From positions 99,734 to 163,733 of the forward strand of contig NZ_JADDIX010000007.1 in the NCBI RefSeq assembly GCF_015070855.1: 64,000 nt of DNA. Direction: 5' to 3'. The notes under the pieces are model-generated. The model did no database searches. It worked only from the letters and a program-made list of their open reading frames with translations, and was not told the DNA's origin. This document shows, one piece after another, positions 38,941 to 57,783 of the stretch. Positions within the stretch are counted from its first letter, which is position 1; each line of letters begins with the position of its first letter. This DNA comes from Pseudomonas lopnurensis. Its GTDB lineage: Bacteria; Pseudomonadota; Gammaproteobacteria; Pseudomonadales; Pseudomonadaceae. Made by a program: the position numbers and the translations under genes.

Positions 38941-39738
38941 TCAACGTGCCTGACCCGGCACCGCCTTCAGTTGCCTGACGGCGCCGCTGGCGATCAGTTC
39001 GGCCAGCGCCGTCACATCCATCAGCGCGCACATGTGCTCGATCACCGTACCGGCGAGCCACGGCCGCTGGCTGCGCTGCGTGCGCCACTTGACCTCGCGC
39101 GGGTCGAGGCGAATCGAACGGCTGACCTGATGCACCGCCAGCCCCCACTCGTACCCCTGCACCGAAATCACGTACTGCAGGCCTTGGCGGAAGTCCTCGC
39201 GGTAGCGATCGGGCATCACCCAGCGCGCGGTATCCAGCACCTTCAGGTTGCCAGCCTGGCTCGGCAGTATGCCGAGAAACCAGTCGGGCTGGCCGAACAG
39301 CGGCGTCAGCTCATGCCCGGCCAGCGGATAGATGGAACCCAGGCAGACCAGCGGCACCGCCAGCGTCAGGCCGGCCACGTCGAACAGCAGGCACTCGAAG
39401 GGCGCCTCGCCCCACTCCGGCTGCCCGCCGGCCTTGGGCCGTGGCGGCTCGCCCTCGGCCCGCGGCGCGGTATCCAGCTCGGCGACCGGCTCCACCAGCG
39501 TCACGACGGGCGCCGACAGGAGCTCGGGCTCGACGGGCGCAACCACCTCGGGCTGGACCACTTCGAGCGCCGGGGCATCGCGACGGGTATCACGCAGCCG
39601 TTCCTCGAGCACGGCGGCCTGGAACTCGTCCTGGCTGACCGATTCCGCCAGCTCGATGGCCGCGTCCTGCAGCAGCGCGTCGAGATAGGACTGCAGTGCC
39701 TGCTGGGATCGGGTTTCGGTTAGGACGGTGCGACTCAT
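38941..39738 (-). CDS. parP: ParP, CheW-domain array-positioning protein
   Basis: A 265-residue protein with a long, variable Pro/Glu-rich N-terminus (1-110) and a C-terminal CheW-like domain (about 115-260). This architecture and the position right after parC match ParP of Vibrio, which links CheA/receptors to ParC at the pole through its AIF domain. The name is by synteny and architecture. A FliA promoter lies 32-59 bp upstream, so it can be made late, separately from parC. Confidence 0.82.
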   Translation of the reverse strand: MSRTVLTETRSQQALQSYLDALLQDAAIELAESVSQDEFQAAVLEERLRDTRRDAPALEVVQPEVVAPVEPELLSAPVVTLVEPVAELDTAPRAEGEPPRPKAGGQPEWGEAPFECLLFDVAGLTLAVPLVCLGSIYPLAGHELTPLFGQPDWFLGILPSQAGNLKVLDTARWVMPDRYREDFRQGLQYVISVQGYEWGLAVHQVSRSIRLDPREVKWRTQRSQRPWLAGTVIEHMCALMDVTALAELIASGAVRQLKAVPGQAR

Positions 39739-39825: not shown

Positions 39826-40614
39826 TCAAGCCACCTGCGGCGAGGGCTGTATCGCCAGCAGATGCTTGAGCAACGCCCGGTAGGCGAGCACCGCGCGGCT
39901 TCCCGAATCGAACTGCGATGGCGTCAGGCCGGCACGGCTGGCGTCGCGCAGACGCGTGTCGATGGGAATGAACGCCGGCCAGAGGTTGTCCGCATAGCTC
40001 GCGCGCAGCACCTTCAGCGTATTCATCGAAGCCTGGGTACGGCGGTCGAACAGCGTCGGCACGATGGCATAAGGGAGCGCCTGCTTGCGCGAGCGATTGA
40101 TCATCGCCAGCGTGCCGACCATCCGTTCGAGGCCCTTCATCGCGAGGAATTCGGTCTGTACCGGAATGATCAGCTGCTGGCTGGCAGCCAGCGCGTTGAC
40201 CATCAGCACGCCCAGCAGCGGCGGGCTGTCGATGATCGCGTAGTCGAAGTCCTGCCACATCTGCGACAGGCTCTTGGCGATGACCAGGCCCAGGCCGTTC
40301 TGCCCGGGCGACTGCCGCTCCAGGGTCGCCAGCACGGTGCTCGATGGCAGCAGCGAGATGCGCTCGTGACTGGTCGACAGCAGCAGTTGCCAGGGCAGCC
40401 CCTCGGGGACGGTGCCCTGATGCTGGAACAGGTCGAAGACGCTGTGATCGAGGTTGTCGGGATCATGGCCGAAATAGCTGGTCATCGACCCATGCGGATC
40501 GAGATCCAGCACCACGACCCGCTTGCCGGCATCGGCAAGCAGCCCGGCCAGCGCGATCGACGTGGTGGTCTTGCCCACCCCGCCCTTTTGATTGGCTACA
40601 GCCCAGACTCTCAT
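39826..40614 (-). CDS. parC: ParC, ParA-like polar array ATPase
   Basis: A 262-residue MinD/ParA ATPase with the deviant Walker A KGGVGKTT (10-17), Walker A' VLDLDPHGSMT and Walker B DYAIIDSPPLLG. Adjacent ParP and che genes mark it as ParC, which places the chemotaxis array at the flagellated pole, and not as a plasmid or chromosome ParA (no parB or parS nearby). ATG start at 40614. Confidence 0.88.
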   Translation of the reverse strand: MRVWAVANQKGGVGKTTTSIALAGLLADAGKRVVVLDLDPHGSMTSYFGHDPDNLDHSVFDLFQHQGTVPEGLPWQLLLSTSHERISLLPSSTVLATLERQSPGQNGLGLVIAKSLSQMWQDFDYAIIDSPPLLGVLMVNALAASQQLIIPVQTEFLAMKGLERMVGTLAMINRSRKQALPYAIVPTLFDRRTQASMNTLKVLRASYADNLWPAFIPIDTRLRDASRAGLTPSQFDSGSRAVLAYRALLKHLLAIQPSPQVA

Positions 40615-43431: not shown

Positions 43432-45645
43432 TCAAATCCTGCGTGCGTAACGTTTGAGCATGCTGGGAACATCGAGGATCAGGGCGATGCGGCCATCGCC
43501 GGTGATGGTCGCGCCGGACATGCCGGGCGTGCCTTGCAGCATCTTGCCCAGAGGCTTGATCACCACCTCTTCCTGACCCACCAACTGGTCGACGACGAAG
43601 CCGATGCTCTGATTGCCGACGCTGAGGATGACCACATGCCCCTCGCGCTGCACTTCCCGGGCCGCACCCTGGACCAGCCAGCGCTTGAGGTAGAACAGCG
43701 GCAGCGCCTTGTCGCGCACGATGACCACCTCCTGGCCGTCCACCACGTTGGTGCGCGACAGGTCGAGGTGGAAGATCTCGTTGACGTTGACCAAGGGGAA
43801 AGCGAATGCCTGTTCGCCGAGCATGACCATCAAGGTCGGCATGATCGCCAGGGTCAGCGGCACCTTGATCACAACCTTCGAGCCCTGGCCCTTGGAGGAG
43901 AACACATTGACCGTACCGTTGAGCTGGGAAATCTTGGTCTTGACCACGTCCATGCCGACCCCACGGCCGGACACGTCGGAGATCTCGGTCTTGGTCGAGA
44001 AACCCGGCGCGAAGATCAGGTTGTAGCACTCCAGGTCGCTCAGGCGATCGGCGGCGTCCTTCTCCAGCATGCCTTTCTCGACGGCCTTGGCGCGCAGGAC
44101 GTTGGCGTCCATGCCCTTGCCGTCGTCACTGATCACCAGCAGGATATGGTCGCCTTCCTGCTCGGCGGAAAGCACCACCCGGCCGGTGCGCGGCTTGCCG
44201 GCGGCTTCGCGTTCCTCGGGTATCTCGATGCCATGGTCGACGGCGTTGCGCACCAGGTGCACCAGCGGATCGGCGAGCGCTTCGACGAGGTTCTTGTCGA
44301 GGTCGGTTTCCTCGCCGACCAGCTCCAGGTTGATTTCCTTCTTCAGGCTGCGTGCCAGATCGCGGACCAGGCGCGGGAAGCGCCCGAAGACCTTCTTGAT
44401 CGGCTGCATGCGCGTCTTCATCACCGCACTCTGCAGGTCGGCCGTCACCACGTCGAGGTTGGAAACCGCCTTGGCCATGGCCTCGTCGCCGCTGTTCGAG
44501 CCGAGGCGCACCAGGCGGTTACGCACCAGCACCAGTTCGCCGACCATGTTCATGATCTCGTCGAGACGCGCGGTATCCACCCGCACCGTGGTTTCGGCTT
44601 CGGCCGAGGTCTTCTCGGCAACAGCGGGCGCCGCCGGCTTGCTCAGCGCAGCGGCCTTGCCTGGTGCCGCCGGAGCCGCCTTGGCCGGCGCGGGTTTGAC
44701 CGCAGCGGTCGGCGCGGCAGCGGCGGCGGGCTTGGCCGGCGCTACCGGAGCGGGCTCGGCGACAGGCGCGGAGCCGGACGAAACACTGGCGGGCTCGAAC
44801 TTGCCCGGGCCATGCAGTTGATCGAGCAAGGCTTCGAATTCGTCGTCGGTAATATGGTCGCTCGTGGAGCTGCCGCCGGATTCGAGCGTCGGCTCCGCCG
44901 CCGCGACAGCTGCGCTGGCAGGCTCGAACTTGCCCTTTCCGTGCAACTGGTCGAGCAACGCTTCGAACTCGTCGTCGGTGATCTCGTCGCTGGCCGGCAC
45001 GGCGACCGGCTGCGCCTCGACCACCGCAGCAGCGCTCGGGCTGGCGGAGAACTGCCCCTTGCCATGCAACTGATCGAGCAGCGACTCGAATTCGTCGTCG
45101 GTGATCTCGTCGGAGGCGGAGCCCGGCTCGGCCGCTTCGCTAGCGGGAGCCTCGATCGCATCGAGCAGTTGCTCGAATTCGTCATCGGCCGCATCGACGG
45201 TCGGCTCGGCAGCAGGCTCCGGTGTCGCCACCGCGGCCACTTCGGCCGAAGCCGGCTCGGCCAGGCGCGCCAGGGCGGCGAGCAGCTCCGGGGAAGCCGG
45301 CGTCGGTTCGACGCGCTCGCGCACCTGGGCGAACATCGCATTCACCGCGTCCAGCGCTTGCAGCACGACGTCCATCAGCTCGGAATCGACGCGACGCTCG
45401 CCCTTGCGCAGTATGTCGAAGACGTTTTCGGCGATGTGGCAGCACTCCACCAGCTCGTGTAGCTGGAGGAAACCTGCGCCGCCCTTGACCGTATGGAAAC
45501 CGCGAAAAATCGCATTGAGCAACGCCATGTCATCGGGGCTGTGCTCCAGCTCCACGAGTTGCTCTGACAATAGTTCGAGAATCTCGCCGGCCTCTACCAG
45601 GAAATCCTGGAGGATTTCTTCATCGGCGTCGAAGCTCATATTCAC
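43432..45645 (-). CDS. cheA: CheA, chemotaxis histidine kinase without P2 and with linker repeats
   Basis: A 737-residue kinase. P1 (1-110) has phospho-His51 in FHTVKGGAGF; P3 starts about 355 (RLDEIMNMVGELVLVRNRL), P4 has NAVDHGIE, DDGKGMD and GRGVGMDVV, P5 (CheW-like) ends at 737. Between P1 and P3 there is no P2 CheY-binding domain. The linker instead holds four DDEFExLLD repeats (about 154-162, 183-195, 224-236, 267-279; the last three extended to ITDDEFEALLDQLHG) and an Ala/Pro-rich stretch (290-345). The repeats resemble the CheY-binding peptides of CheZ and FliM. Lies 5 nt after cheZ. Confidence 0.96.
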   Translation of the reverse strand: MNMSFDADEEILQDFLVEAGEILELLSEQLVELEHSPDDMALLNAIFRGFHTVKGGAGFLQLHELVECCHIAENVFDILRKGERRVDSELMDVVLQALDAVNAMFAQVRERVEPTPASPELLAALARLAEPASAEVAAVATPEPAAEPTVDAADDEFEQLLDAIEAPASEAAEPGSASDEITDDEFESLLDQLHGKGQFSASPSAAAVVEAQPVAVPASDEITDDEFEALLDQLHGKGKFEPASAAVAAAEPTLESGGSSTSDHITDDEFEALLDQLHGPGKFEPASVSSGSAPVAEPAPVAPAKPAAAAAPTAAVKPAPAKAAPAAPGKAAALSKPAAPAVAEKTSAEAETTVRVDTARLDEIMNMVGELVLVRNRLVRLGSNSGDEAMAKAVSNLDVVTADLQSAVMKTRMQPIKKVFGRFPRLVRDLARSLKKEINLELVGEETDLDKNLVEALADPLVHLVRNAVDHGIEIPEEREAAGKPRTGRVVLSAEQEGDHILLVISDDGKGMDANVLRAKAVEKGMLEKDAADRLSDLECYNLIFAPGFSTKTEISDVSGRGVGMDVVKTKISQLNGTVNVFSSKGQGSKVVIKVPLTLAIMPTLMVMLGEQAFAFPLVNVNEIFHLDLSRTNVVDGQEVVIVRDKALPLFYLKRWLVQGAAREVQREGHVVILSVGNQSIGFVVDQLVGQEEVVIKPLGKMLQGTPGMSGATITGDGRIALILDVPSMLKRYARRI

Positions 45646-45650
45646 ATCCC

Positions 45651-46442
45651 CTAAAAGCCCAGGCTTGAAAGCAGATCGTCGACGTCGTCCTGGCCGGAAA
45701 CGACATCCTCACGCATATCGGCATGCATCTGCGGACCTTCACCCTTGGAAGGTTCTTTTTCTTCTTTCTGCTTCAACTGATCGGCACGCAACTGGGCGTG
45801 GTCATGCTGGATGCCGGCGAAGCGATCCACCTGCCCGGCCATCAGCACCAGGTTCAGCAGGTTGCTTTCCAGCTCGGTAATGAGCCGGGTGACCCGCTTG
45901 ATCACCTGACCGGTGAGATCCTGGAAATCCTGGGCCAGCATGATTTCGCGCAGGTTCTGCGACAGCTGGCTGCCATCGTTCATGCTGCGCTTGAGAAACT
46001 GATCGATACGCGGGACCAGCTCGCGGAACTCCTCGGCCTTCATGTCCCGCCGCATGAACCGCTGCCAGTCGGCCGTCAGGCTCTGGGCCTCGTAACTGAC
46101 ATAGTTGACCAGCGGCACGCATTCCTCGACCAGATCCATGGTGCGGTTGGCCGCTTTCTCGGTCATGTCCACCACGTAGGACAGGCGATCGGTGGCGTCG
46201 GTGATCTGCGACGTCTCGCGCGCCTCGCACGTGTCTATTTCCAGCTTGACGATGGCGCTGTGCAGCTCGCGTGTCAGCTTGCCGACTTCCTGGTACAGGC
46301 CGCGGTCACGCGCCTGGTTGAGCTGGTGAATCATCAGTACCGCTTCGTCGAAGCGACCCCGCTCGAGGCAGTCGACCAACTGATGGGCGTGGGACTTAAG
46401 GGTCGTTTCGAACTCGGTCATGCTGTCGTCTTGGTGCGCCAT
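45651..46442 (-). CDS. cheZ: CheZ, CheY-P phosphatase
   Basis: A 263-residue CheZ with the long helical hairpin, the catalytic region QDFQDLTGQVIKRV and the C-terminal CheY-tethering peptide GQDDVDDLLSSLGF (250-263). It is longer than E. coli CheZ, the extra length being a charged linker (about 215-245). GAGG 5 nt before the ATG at 46442 supports this start over one seven codons later. Confidence 0.95.
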   Translation of the reverse strand: MAHQDDSMTEFETTLKSHAHQLVDCLERGRFDEAVLMIHQLNQARDRGLYQEVGKLTRELHSAIVKLEIDTCEARETSQITDATDRLSYVVDMTEKAANRTMDLVEECVPLVNYVSYEAQSLTADWQRFMRRDMKAEEFRELVPRIDQFLKRSMNDGSQLSQNLREIMLAQDFQDLTGQVIKRVTRLITELESNLLNLVLMAGQVDRFAGIQHDHAQLRADQLKQKEEKEPSKGEGPQMHADMREDVVSGQDDVDDLLSSLGF

Positions 46443-46462: not shown

Positions 46463-46849
46463 TCAGCCGTTGACGCGCTCGAAGATCTTTTCGATCTTCT
46501 CTTTGAGCACCTGGGCCGTGAAAGGCTTGACCACATAACCATTGACCCCAGCCTGGGCCGCCTCGATGATCTGGTCACGCTTGGCTTCGGCGGTCACCAT
46601 CAGCACCGGCAGGTGCTTGAGACGCTCATCGGCGCGCACGATGCGCAGCAGATCGATGCCGCTCATGCCAGGCATGTTCCAGTCGGTGACGAGGAAGTCG
46701 AAGCTGCCACTCTTGAGCATCGGCAGCGCGGTGGTGCCGTCGTCCGCCTCGGCGGTATTGGTGAACCCCAAATCACGCAAGAGGTTCTTGATGATCCGTC
46801 TCATCGTCGAGAAGTCATCGACAATGAGGATTTTCATGTTCTTGTCCAA
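46463..46849 (-). CDS. cheY: CheY, chemotaxis response regulator
   Basis: A single-domain response regulator, phospho-Asp in LVTDWNMPG, Thr/Lys in MVTAEAK and VKPF. Binds FliM when phosphorylated to reverse the motor. The start is unusual: GGAGG is 5 nt before a TTG at 46849 (128 residues), but 17 nt before the ATG (46837) that gives the 124-residue length standard for P. aeruginosa CheY. I annotate the TTG because of the SD spacing; the core is certain. Confidence 0.95.
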
Positions 46850-56294: not shown

Positions 56295-56771
56295 TCAGCG
56301 CAGCTTCTTGATGCGTTCGGTGGGGCTGATCACGTCGGTCAGCCGGATGCCGAACTTCTCGTTGACCACCACCACTTCGCCATGGGCGATCAACGTGCCG
56401 TTGACCAGCACGTCCAGCGGCTCGCCGGCCAGGCGGTCGAGTTCGACCACCGAGCCCTGGTTGAGCTGCAGCAGGTTGCGGATGCTGATTTCGGTGCTAC
56501 CGACTTCCATTGAAATCGATACCGGAATGTCGAGGATCACATCCAGGTTCGGCCCTTCCAGGCCCAGCTGCATGCCGCTGGGCTTCGGCCCGCTGGCGAA
56601 ATCCTCCAGCGGTGCGCGCGGAGCCGGAGCTGGAGCCGCTTCGCCCGGCCCCTGGTTCAACAGCGCATCGATATCGTCCTGGCTGGCGTCACCCGCTTCG
56701 GCAAGGGCCGCCGCCCATTCGTCGGCCAGCGCCTGTTCCTCGGGAGAAGTGTTGTCGCGTTCGTCTGCCAT
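56295..56771 (-). CDS. fliN: FliN, C-ring switch protein with an N-terminal EIDALL-like motif
   Basis: A 158-residue FliN: the C-terminal SpoA domain (about 75-158; LDVILDIPVSISMEVGSTEI and VNEKFGIRLTDVISPTERI) builds the C-ring base. The N-terminus has SQDDIDALLNQG (30-41), which resembles the CheY-binding motif of FliM (LSQDEIDALLHG) encoded next to it, followed by a Pro/Ala linker. ATG at 56771; a longer reading lies in fliM and is rejected. Confidence 0.95.
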   Translation of the reverse strand: MADERDNTSPEEQALADEWAAALAEAGDASQDDIDALLNQGPGEAAPAPAPRAPLEDFASGPKPSGMQLGLEGPNLDVILDIPVSISMEVGSTEISIRNLLQLNQGSVVELDRLAGEPLDVLVNGTLIAHGEVVVVNEKFGIRLTDVISPTERIKKLR

Positions 56772-56811: not shown

Positions 56812-57783
56812 TCAACGTGGGCGAACCACGGGCTCCAGCACCTGTAGCGCCAGGTTGCCCTTGTGGGCCCCCAGCTTGACCTTGAAGGCCGGCATGCCAT
56901 TGGCACGCATGATCATGTCTTCCGGCATCTCCACCGGAATCACGTCGCCCGGCTGCATGTTGAGAATGTCGCGCAGCTTCAGCTGCCGACGCACGACGGT
57001 CGCGCCCAGCGGCACGCTGACGTCGAGAATGTCCTCGCGCAGGGCCTTGACCCAGCGCTCGTCCTGGTCGCTGACGTCCGATTGGAAACCGGCGTCGAGC
57101 ATCTCGCGGATCGGTTCGATCATCGAATAAGGCATGGTCACGTGCAGGTCGCCACCGCCGCTGTCCAGCTCGATATGGAAGGTGGAGACCACCACCACCT
57201 CGCTGGGGCTGACGATGTTGGCCAACGCCGGGTTCACTTCCGAGTTGACGTACTCGAAGTTGACGTCCAGCACCGCGTGCCAGGCTTCCTTGAGGTCGGC
57301 GAAGGCCTGCTCGAGCACCATGCGCACGACGCGCAGCTCGGTCGGGGTGAATTCGCGTCCCTCGATCTTGGCGTGCCGCCCGTCGCCACCGAAGAAGTTG
57401 TCCACCAGCTTGAACACCAGCTTGGCGTCGAGGATGAATAGCGCGGTGCCACGCAGCGGCTTCATCTTCACCAGGTTGAGGCTGGTGGGCACGTAGAGCG
57501 AATGGACGTATTCGCCGAACTTCATCACCTGCACACCGCCCACCGACACGTCGGCCGAGCGCCGCAGCAGGTTGAACATGCTGATGCGGGTGTAACGGGC
57601 GAAGCGCTCGTTGATCATTTCCAGCGTGGGCATGCGCCCACGAACGATACGGTCCTGACTGGTCAGGTCGTAACTCTTGATGGCACCCGGATCGGAATCG
57701 CTTTCGGTATCCACCAGACCGTCGTCGACCCCGTGCAGGAGCGCATCGATCTCGTCTTGCGAGAGCAGGTCTTGAACAGCCAT
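56812..57783 (-). CDS. fliM: FliM, flagellar switch protein
   Basis: A 323-residue FliM: N-terminal CheY-P-binding peptide LLSQDEIDALLHG (6-18), middle CheC-like domain (about 45-235; GGRGN-type region seen as YTRISMFNLLRRSADVSV) and C-terminal SpoA domain (about 245-320). Sets rotation direction. Preceded by fliL at 12 nt. Confidence 0.97.
   Translation of the reverse strand: MAVQDLLSQDEIDALLHGVDDGLVDTESDSDPGAIKSYDLTSQDRIVRGRMPTLEMINERFARYTRISMFNLLRRSADVSVGGVQVMKFGEYVHSLYVPTSLNLVKMKPLRGTALFILDAKLVFKLVDNFFGGDGRHAKIEGREFTPTELRVVRMVLEQAFADLKEAWHAVLDVNFEYVNSEVNPALANIVSPSEVVVVSTFHIELDSGGGDLHVTMPYSMIEPIREMLDAGFQSDVSDQDERWVKALREDILDVSVPLGATVVRRQLKLRDILNMQPGDVIPVEMPEDMIMRANGMPAFKVKLGAHKGNLALQVLEPVVRPR

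Follow-up and report, generated by a model that had tools for sequence, protein, structure and literature searches.

CheA and its linker in the Pseudomonas lopnurensis chemotaxis operon

The DNA analyzed here, a 64,000-nucleotide stretch of the Pseudomonas lopnurensis genome (contig NZ_JADDIX010000007.1, positions 99,734 to 163,733) that we call the window, carries a chemotaxis operon on its minus strand, with cheY, cheZ, cheA, cheB, two mot-like genes, parC, parP, and cheW in order of transcription. Pfam matches support cheY, cheZ, cheA, parC, and parP, and cheB and the mot-like genes were assigned by eye. The subject of this report is the product of cheA (positions 43432 to 45645 of the window, minus strand, as are all features given below), a protein of 737 amino acids in which P1 is followed by a linker with four short peptides and then by P3, P4, and P5, without a P2 domain. 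This architecture was read from an AlphaFold2 model and from Pfam, in which Hpt, H-kinase_dim, HATPase_c, and CheW are the only families above cut-off. The closest named CheA proteins, from Stutzerimonas, are 84 to 88% identical to the window CheA.

P1 is a helical domain of about residues 9 to 128 (45262 to 45621), matched by Pfam Hpt at residues 10 to 102 and modeled as helices at 9 to 128, with predicted local distance difference test (pLDDT) values of 93 to 97 in blocks from residue 11 onward. The linker, residues 131 to 357 (44575 to 45255), is rich in Ala and Pro and mostly disordered by composition and by block pLDDT values that lie mainly at 37 to 56 beyond the motif helices. Within it are four copies of DEITDDEFEALLDQLHGKGKF, a 22-residue unit starting at residues 150, 179, 220, and 263. 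A preliminary description of this DNA had placed four repeats in the CheA linker at 44800 to 45198, a range that proved right within six bases. Copy 1, VDAADDEFEQLLDAIEAPASEA (45133 to 45198), is degenerate, lacks the LHG tail, and scores 19.2 bits against a position-specific scoring matrix (PSSM) of the motif. Copies 2, DEITDDEFESLLDQLHGKGQFS (45046 to 45111), 3, DEITDDEFEALLDQLHGKGKFE (44923 to 44988), and 4, DHITDDEFEALLDQLHGPGKFE (44794 to 44859), score 65.9, 67.4, and 62.0 bits, respectively. The 136 linker residues outside the copies consist of 37% Ala, 17% Pro, and 10% Val, with only 1.5% F, I, L, M, W, or Y. In the AlphaFold2 model, built with 73 sequences, helices occur in the linker only at residues 157 to 161 (a short one), 183 to 193, 224 to 234, and 267 to 278, one per copy. 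The confidence of these helices is middling (blocks of 54 to 76), and the predicted template modeling score (pTM) of the whole model is low, at 0.45.

The linker of a CheA from Pseudomonas alcaligenes (L153) has three copies of the unit that are identical across all 22 residues, which points to recent duplication or gene conversion inside that linker.

Missing P2 and conserved linker peptides across the class

The preliminary description had also held that no folded P2 lies between P1 and P3, and three methods agree with it. No Pfam family reaches its cut-off between residues 103 and 351 of the window CheA, and Pfam P2 is unmatched there at E values up to 1. CheA was then considered across 276 genomes of Gammaproteobacteria, from which 100 loci were taken; the remaining CheA matches, some of them F6-type, lie outside the counts given here. 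The F6-type set comprises 86 proteins (the window CheA, L017 to L100, and L102) and the set from other CheA classes comprises 15 (L101 and L103 to L116), the F6 label being assigned from score, operon, and general knowledge of the classes rather than by a classifier. Pfam P2 matches none of the 86 F6-type proteins at E values up to 0.01 (sets of 51 and 35), and none of 10 named CheA proteins, five of them from Vibrio, at E values up to 10. Pfam alone is a weak P2 detector, since among the 15 proteins of other classes just one (L110) matches Pfam P2/CheY-binding and the remaining 14 do not. A profile of 37 linkers aligned by hhalign with the E. coli P2 gave a probability of 0.4% and an E value of 0.13; a control using the linkers of 13 other-class proteins gave 14.8% and 0.0018, so that this test is only moderately sensitive. 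In the AlphaFold2 model, no folded domain is seen between P1 and P3, most of residues 135 to 356 falling in segments with pLDDT below 50. By Pfam, hhalign, and AlphaFold2, then, P2 is absent from the window CheA.

The peptides themselves are nearly uniform in occurrence, far beyond what chance would give. PSSM copies were found in 85 of the 86 F6-type proteins (one copy in 5, two in 35, three in 40, and four in 5), and in the sole protein without a PSSM match, L099, two diverged copies, DDDLEAILDQVHG and ELDFEALLDAAHG, were recognized by eye. The motif was found in none of the 15 proteins of other classes, in which residues 115 to 330 were scanned, the P3 boundary being unset for most. The preliminary description had called for repeat number to be compared with the presence of P2; across the class, the F6-type set has no Pfam P2 and the motif in 85 of 86 proteins, and the other-class set has no motif and one Pfam P2. 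All 80 named loci carry at least two copies; in the 79 parsed by script there are three copies in 59, four in 19, and five in 1, and L130 has two clear ones. The median spacing of copies in the named loci is 42 residues.

Conservation in the linker is confined to the copies. In an alignment of 51 CheA proteins, the invariant residues between position 131 and P3 (L231, E269, and F270) all lie inside the motif, as do those in an alignment of 73 (E185, E226, F227, D232, F270, and L274), and the motif copies are the sole conserved blocks in 37 aligned linkers. Of 215 PSSM copies, 213 have Glu-6, 215 have Phe-7, and 200 have Asp-12; a hydrophobic residue occupies the two Leu positions in 214 and 215 of them. 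Selection of the copies by the PSSM inflates these figures somewhat. The PSSM favors Phe, and Leu replaces the central Phe in diverged copies of L263 and L269. The peptide array is thus a class-wide feature of F6-type CheA proteins and not special to Pseudomonas. This goes beyond the preliminary description, as do the FliN peptide and the similar ParP N-terminal helix treated below.

Resemblance to the FliM, FliN, and CheZ peptides

The window, in stop-free six-frame translation, was scanned at four widths with a BLOSUM-smoothed motif profile. With the 11-residue core, the N-terminal peptide of FliM, LSQDEIDALLH (57733 to 57765), which is of the CheY-binding type, was the top match after the four CheA copies among 106,679 six-frame positions, with a score of 23.8. 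The N-terminal peptide ASQDDIDALLN of FliN (56655 to 56687, in a 205-amino-acid open frame named FliN by eye) was ninth overall and fifth outside CheA, and a stretch of ParP, VSQDEFQAAVL, was twelfth. FliM and FliN stood third and fourth outside CheA in a 9-mer scan and fourth and sixth in a 15-mer scan. In a 10-mer scan shifted toward the tail of the motif, FliM was fifth outside CheA, and the CheZ tail and FliN were sixteenth and eighteenth overall. The CheZ tail was missing among the 22 matches listed at each of the other widths. The preliminary description had likened the repeats to FliM and CheZ alike; the likeness to FliM stands, and that to CheZ is weaker.

In the 79 named loci, when the best window was taken for each open frame (3,499 frames, 621,065 residues, the L130 CheA excluded), four frames reached 23.8, which makes such a score rare. 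The FliM peptide is present in all 23 FliM loci from 24 genomes searched, one genome being without FliM. The C-terminal tail of the window CheZ, GQDDVDDLLSSLGF (45654 to 45695), which we take to be of the known CheY-tethering type, has a pattern found in 78 of the 79 CheZ proteins of the surveyed loci. The FliN peptide SQDDIDALLN is likewise FliM-type, and the switch may therefore have two CheY sites. Further carriers of the core among the best 60 matches in the 79 named loci were ParP N termini, CheW C termini, and scattered singletons, and no new CheY partner emerged from them.

The motif and the FliM peptide LSQDEIDALL share a capped helix with an acidic-hydrophobic-acidic-x-Leu-Leu pattern, in a register that extends over ten positions. 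The FliM peptide is terminal and single, however, whereas the CheA motif is internal and repeated, has Phe for Ile, and bears a D-x-L-H-G extension. With the CheZ C-terminal tail DDVDDLLSSLGF, the motif shares a hydrophobic-acidic-x-LL-(D/S)-x-L core, but the CheZ tail is C-terminal, has Val, ends in G-F, and is the weaker match in the scans, while the CheA motif has Phe and ends in H-G. The first copy in Vibrio CheA reads I-S/T-Q-D-E-F-E-K/R-L-L-D-E-L-H-G and was compared with FliM LSQDEIDALLHG and E. coli CheZ ASQDQVDDLLDSLGF. The 215 copies and the AlphaFold2 helices together fit an acidic-hydrophobic-acidic-x-Leu-Leu helix on a flexible tether.

In E. coli, the alpha4-beta5-alpha5 face of CheY is used by P2, by the FliM N terminus, and by the CheZ tail. 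The proposed partner in the window, the product of cheY (46463 to 46849; Response_reg), is 61% identical to E. coli CheY and keeps AEAK, AAQAG, and GYVVKPFTA around alpha4-beta5-alpha5, so that the FliM-binding region is largely retained. The repeats probably stand in for P2 as a multivalent array of peptides, one that docks CheY on the same face as FliM and CheZ do, and it is in this form, as the best reading of the sequences, that the recruitment of CheY by docking peptides proposed in the preliminary description is retained here. Each repeat, I-T-D-D-E-F-E-x-L-L-D, would form a short, capped, amphipathic helix, flexibly tethered between P1 and P3, that binds CheY at alpha4-beta5-alpha5. Docked CheY would be held close to P1, which would speed phosphotransfer, and would be retained at the polar array, and the presence of more than one copy on each kinase would concentrate CheY locally. 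In Pseudomonas aeruginosa, CheY-eYFP is polar and overlaps CheA-CFP, according to a portion of PMC12410967. Because CheY marks the CheA cluster there, a CheA of this genus appears to recruit CheY, the sequence of that particular CheA being outside our comparison.

Several observations weigh against CheY docking. FliM is first outside CheA at only one of the four widths, though near the top at all of them, and the central position is Phe in the motif but Ile or Val in FliM and CheZ. Searched with a profile of all 22 residues, the genome itself yields just the CheA copies (next E value, 1.1), not FliM or CheZ, and the PDB yields no CheY complex; the five PDB matches, ASC proteins with E values of 5.9 or more, were set aside as chance. 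The N-terminal half of the motif is a generic helix cap: CheW C termini (LLTDDEWDEL) score 20 to 21.6 and two ParP N termini 23.2 to 23.3, against 23.8 for FliM, and a frame in L150 resembling a ParP N terminus scores 28.5. The conserved D-x-L-H-G tail is unaccounted for by FliM. Matches to the SHOCT family (PF09851) occur at E values up to 0.01 in 31 of 51 and 15 of 35 F6-type proteins; in the window CheA, profile positions 11 to 27 of 28 are matched at 24.5 bits, below the 27-bit cut-off, and the match is likewise below cut-off in L067 and in nine of the ten named CheA proteins and above it in L153 (29.1). Finally, FliM and CheZ peptides favor phosphorylated CheY, whereas a substrate dock would call for the reverse preference; as a guess, Phe in place of Ile or Val may tilt the preference toward unphosphorylated CheY.

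In L119, L124, L129, L135, L137, L140, L160, L170, L188, and L193, CheW ends in K-(L/F)-L-(T/S)-(D/E)-(D/E)-E-W-D-E-(L/I/M) plus a few residues, a capped helix broadly similar in shape to the motif.

ParC/ParP and other explanations of the repeats

The LID of CheA was reportedly defined by Ringgaard in 2014. In Vibrio it lies between P2 and P3, binds ParP, and occurs only alongside ParC/ParP, as reported in parts of PMC5706961 and PMC7534058. The repeats could be this LID, which would bind the AIF domain of ParP through the face with W305 and tie the array to ParC at the pole. The operon in the window does contain parC (39826 to 40614), for a ParA-like ATPase (AAA_31) that we used as the marker of the ParC/ParP system, and parP (38941 to 39738), for a protein with a CheW-like C-terminal domain (CheW, 50.1 bits) that was named from its position beside parC. 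Moreover, since the copies are the only conserved blocks in 37 linkers, a LID common to all these CheA proteins would include a motif copy. Both points count for the LID.

The distribution of ParC argues the other way. Accepted ParC matches scored 173 to 518 bits against the window ParC, and a chromosomal ParA-like band at 110 to 137 bits occurs in ParC-bearing genomes too. By this marker, ParC was undetected in seven surveyed genomes (G172, G261, G008, G001, G020, G023, and G161); completeness is 91% for G001, and a ParP-like frame is present in G161. It was also undetected in G152 and in 37 more genomes from the order to which G172 belongs. In the order of G023, 16 genomes bear an F6-type CheA, and ParC was undetected in 14 of them, the other two, G314 and G330, having it. 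In family f51, 39 genomes have an F6-type CheA, all without detected ParC, and the CheA was read in 20; G049, with no match, is outside this count. The CheA proteins read from ParC-negative genomes number 39: the class survey supplied 7, f51 another 18, G152 one, and the order of G023 another 13. By group, the motif is present in 20 of 20 from f51, in 14 of 14 from the order of G023, and in G008, G020, G152, G001, and G161, which makes 39 of 39, with a diverged form in G023 and G316. In the one-contig genome G279, no ParP was found either: of the seven CheW-domain proteins found there, five are the size of CheW or CheA and two are CheV proteins (CheW plus response regulator). G279 is the one ParC-negative genome in which the absence of ParP was examined by such a survey. 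Because the motif persists where ParC is undetected, and in G279 where ParP is missing as well, binding of ParP is unlikely to be its sole role, and the ParP alternative raised in the preliminary description is disfavored as the only role, with a second role possible. Nothing pointed to the HptB-like partner also raised there, although no test was aimed at it.

The linker of Vibrio and Photobacterium offers a different candidate for the LID. After the last copy, an EELExAT block occurs in 7 of 72 named CheA proteins, five from Vibrio and two from Photobacterium (L142, L151, L161, L170, L174, L183, and L189), and in none of the other 65. This block may be, or be part of, the Vibrio LID. Taken with the ParC-negative genomes, it leaves the repeats unlikely to be the LID itself.

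One genome, G031 (L027, L262), was considered as a nonflagellated keeper of the motif and was dropped. Its single contig has cheA, cheY, cheZ, parC, parP, flgD, and flgE, but FliM and FlhA were not found in it and CheB is short, so that its flagellar and chemotaxis genes look decayed. Clear ParP genes, at 313 to 363 bits, occur in the Pseudomonas loci L153, L159, L176, L177, and L184, and the window likewise has parC and parP. In contrast, P. aeruginosa is said in part of PMC12410967 to have no genes of the ParC-ParP network.

A division of labor among specialized copies is about as improbable as the LID; in it, CheY would dock at the EFEALL core, and ParP would be bound by the D-x-L-H-G tail or by the last copy. 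Tail and core do part company in places: in CheA proteins with at least three copies, the L-x-G tail is missing in 25 of 45 first, 4 of 50 middle, and 5 of 45 last copies, and all 20 proteins of f51 (L229 to L248), where ParC is undetected, have two or three copies that keep the core while D-x-L-H-G is changed to x-Q-R (mostly NQRD) or QMRE. The additional conserved block past the last copy in Vibrio and Photobacterium is also consistent with such a division. However, ParC-negative genomes elsewhere retain the H-G tail (L071, L096, and most of those in the order of G023), and L035 and L037 have both ParC and ParP yet no L-H-G copy, though some copies have L-Q-G.

A little more doubtful still is a third explanation, that the repeats dock some other partner or an internal site (CheB, CheW, ParC, P1, P4, or P5) or self-associate in the manner of SHOCT, the FliM likeness being that of a generic capped helix. 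The SHOCT matches given above favor it, and E. coli P2 binds CheB besides CheY, as stated in part of PMC10542144. A shared partner is made possible by the ParP N-terminal helix, which in the window is ALQSYLDALLQD (39664 to 39699), like the CheA motif in kind. The pattern xALxxYLDALLxE is found in the first 90 residues of 105 of 124 ParP frames (L017 to L196) and resembles both FliM IDALL and the CheA motif. The N-terminal end of ParP binds ParC, according to a section of PMC5706961, and the ParP helix and the CheA motif could share that one partner, or could share CheY. Against other partners, the blind 11-mer scan ranks FliM first and FliN fifth outside CheA, ParC is dispensable for the motif, and AlphaFold2, with its middling helix confidence and low pTM, gives no argument for packing within CheA, a weak point drawn from confidence values.

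A candidate CheY dock in P2-less CheA proteins

A CheY dock remains the simplest account, because the peptides lie at the place of P2, in proteins where P2 is missing, are shaped like CheY-bound peptides, and are independent of ParC. Like the P2 domain (PF07194, PF09078), the array is flexibly tethered between P1 and P3 and is a proposed CheY dock near P1. Unlike P2, which is folded, has about 70 residues, and mostly occurs in one copy, it has no fold and consists of one to five short helices. With the Vibrio LID, the array shares its position as a linker element ahead of P3 in the same CheA class, but the LID is reported only together with ParC/ParP and the motif persists without detectable ParC.

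Over half of CheA proteins lack P2 and have an unstructured region instead, and P2 is called dispensable, in the sections of Berry et al. 2023 (PMC10782961; preprint, PMC10542144) on which we draw. Those proteins resemble the CheA described here in having no P2 and an unstructured region between P1 and P3. The same sections call the region unstructured and mention no peptides, whereas the CheA proteins here have motif copies in it. In the open-license literature searched, the peptides are undescribed, and the literal peptide strings are absent from the paper texts; figures and most subscription papers lie outside that search, and a prior description is possible. The Vibrio literature places the LID after a P2 domain, in the part of PMC7534058 that concerns it. 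Of the five Vibrio CheA proteins examined, none comes from V. cholerae or V. parahaemolyticus; each carries three motif copies, and Pfam finds P2 in none. Such P2-less proteins with the motif bear on that literature.

The motif gives one large P2-less class of CheA a concrete, conserved, and easily mutated candidate dock for CheY. Because FliM, FliN, and CheZ carry similar peptides, a single face of CheY would be contested by kinase, phosphatase, and motor, and the candidate dock predicts direct competition with the motor and the phosphatase. A wider proposal, which we put forward tentatively and with less assurance than docking itself, is that the CheA class of the polar-flagellum operons of Pseudomonas, Vibrio, and Shewanella swapped a folded P2 for one to five FliM-like peptides that act as a multivalent CheY antenna. 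Kinase, CheZ, FliM/FliN, and perhaps ParP would then share one CheY face through variants of one peptide, with routing by competition and a copy number that evolves freely. If the peptides bind CheY, copy number would be a natural knob for signal gain and for the retention of CheY at the pole.

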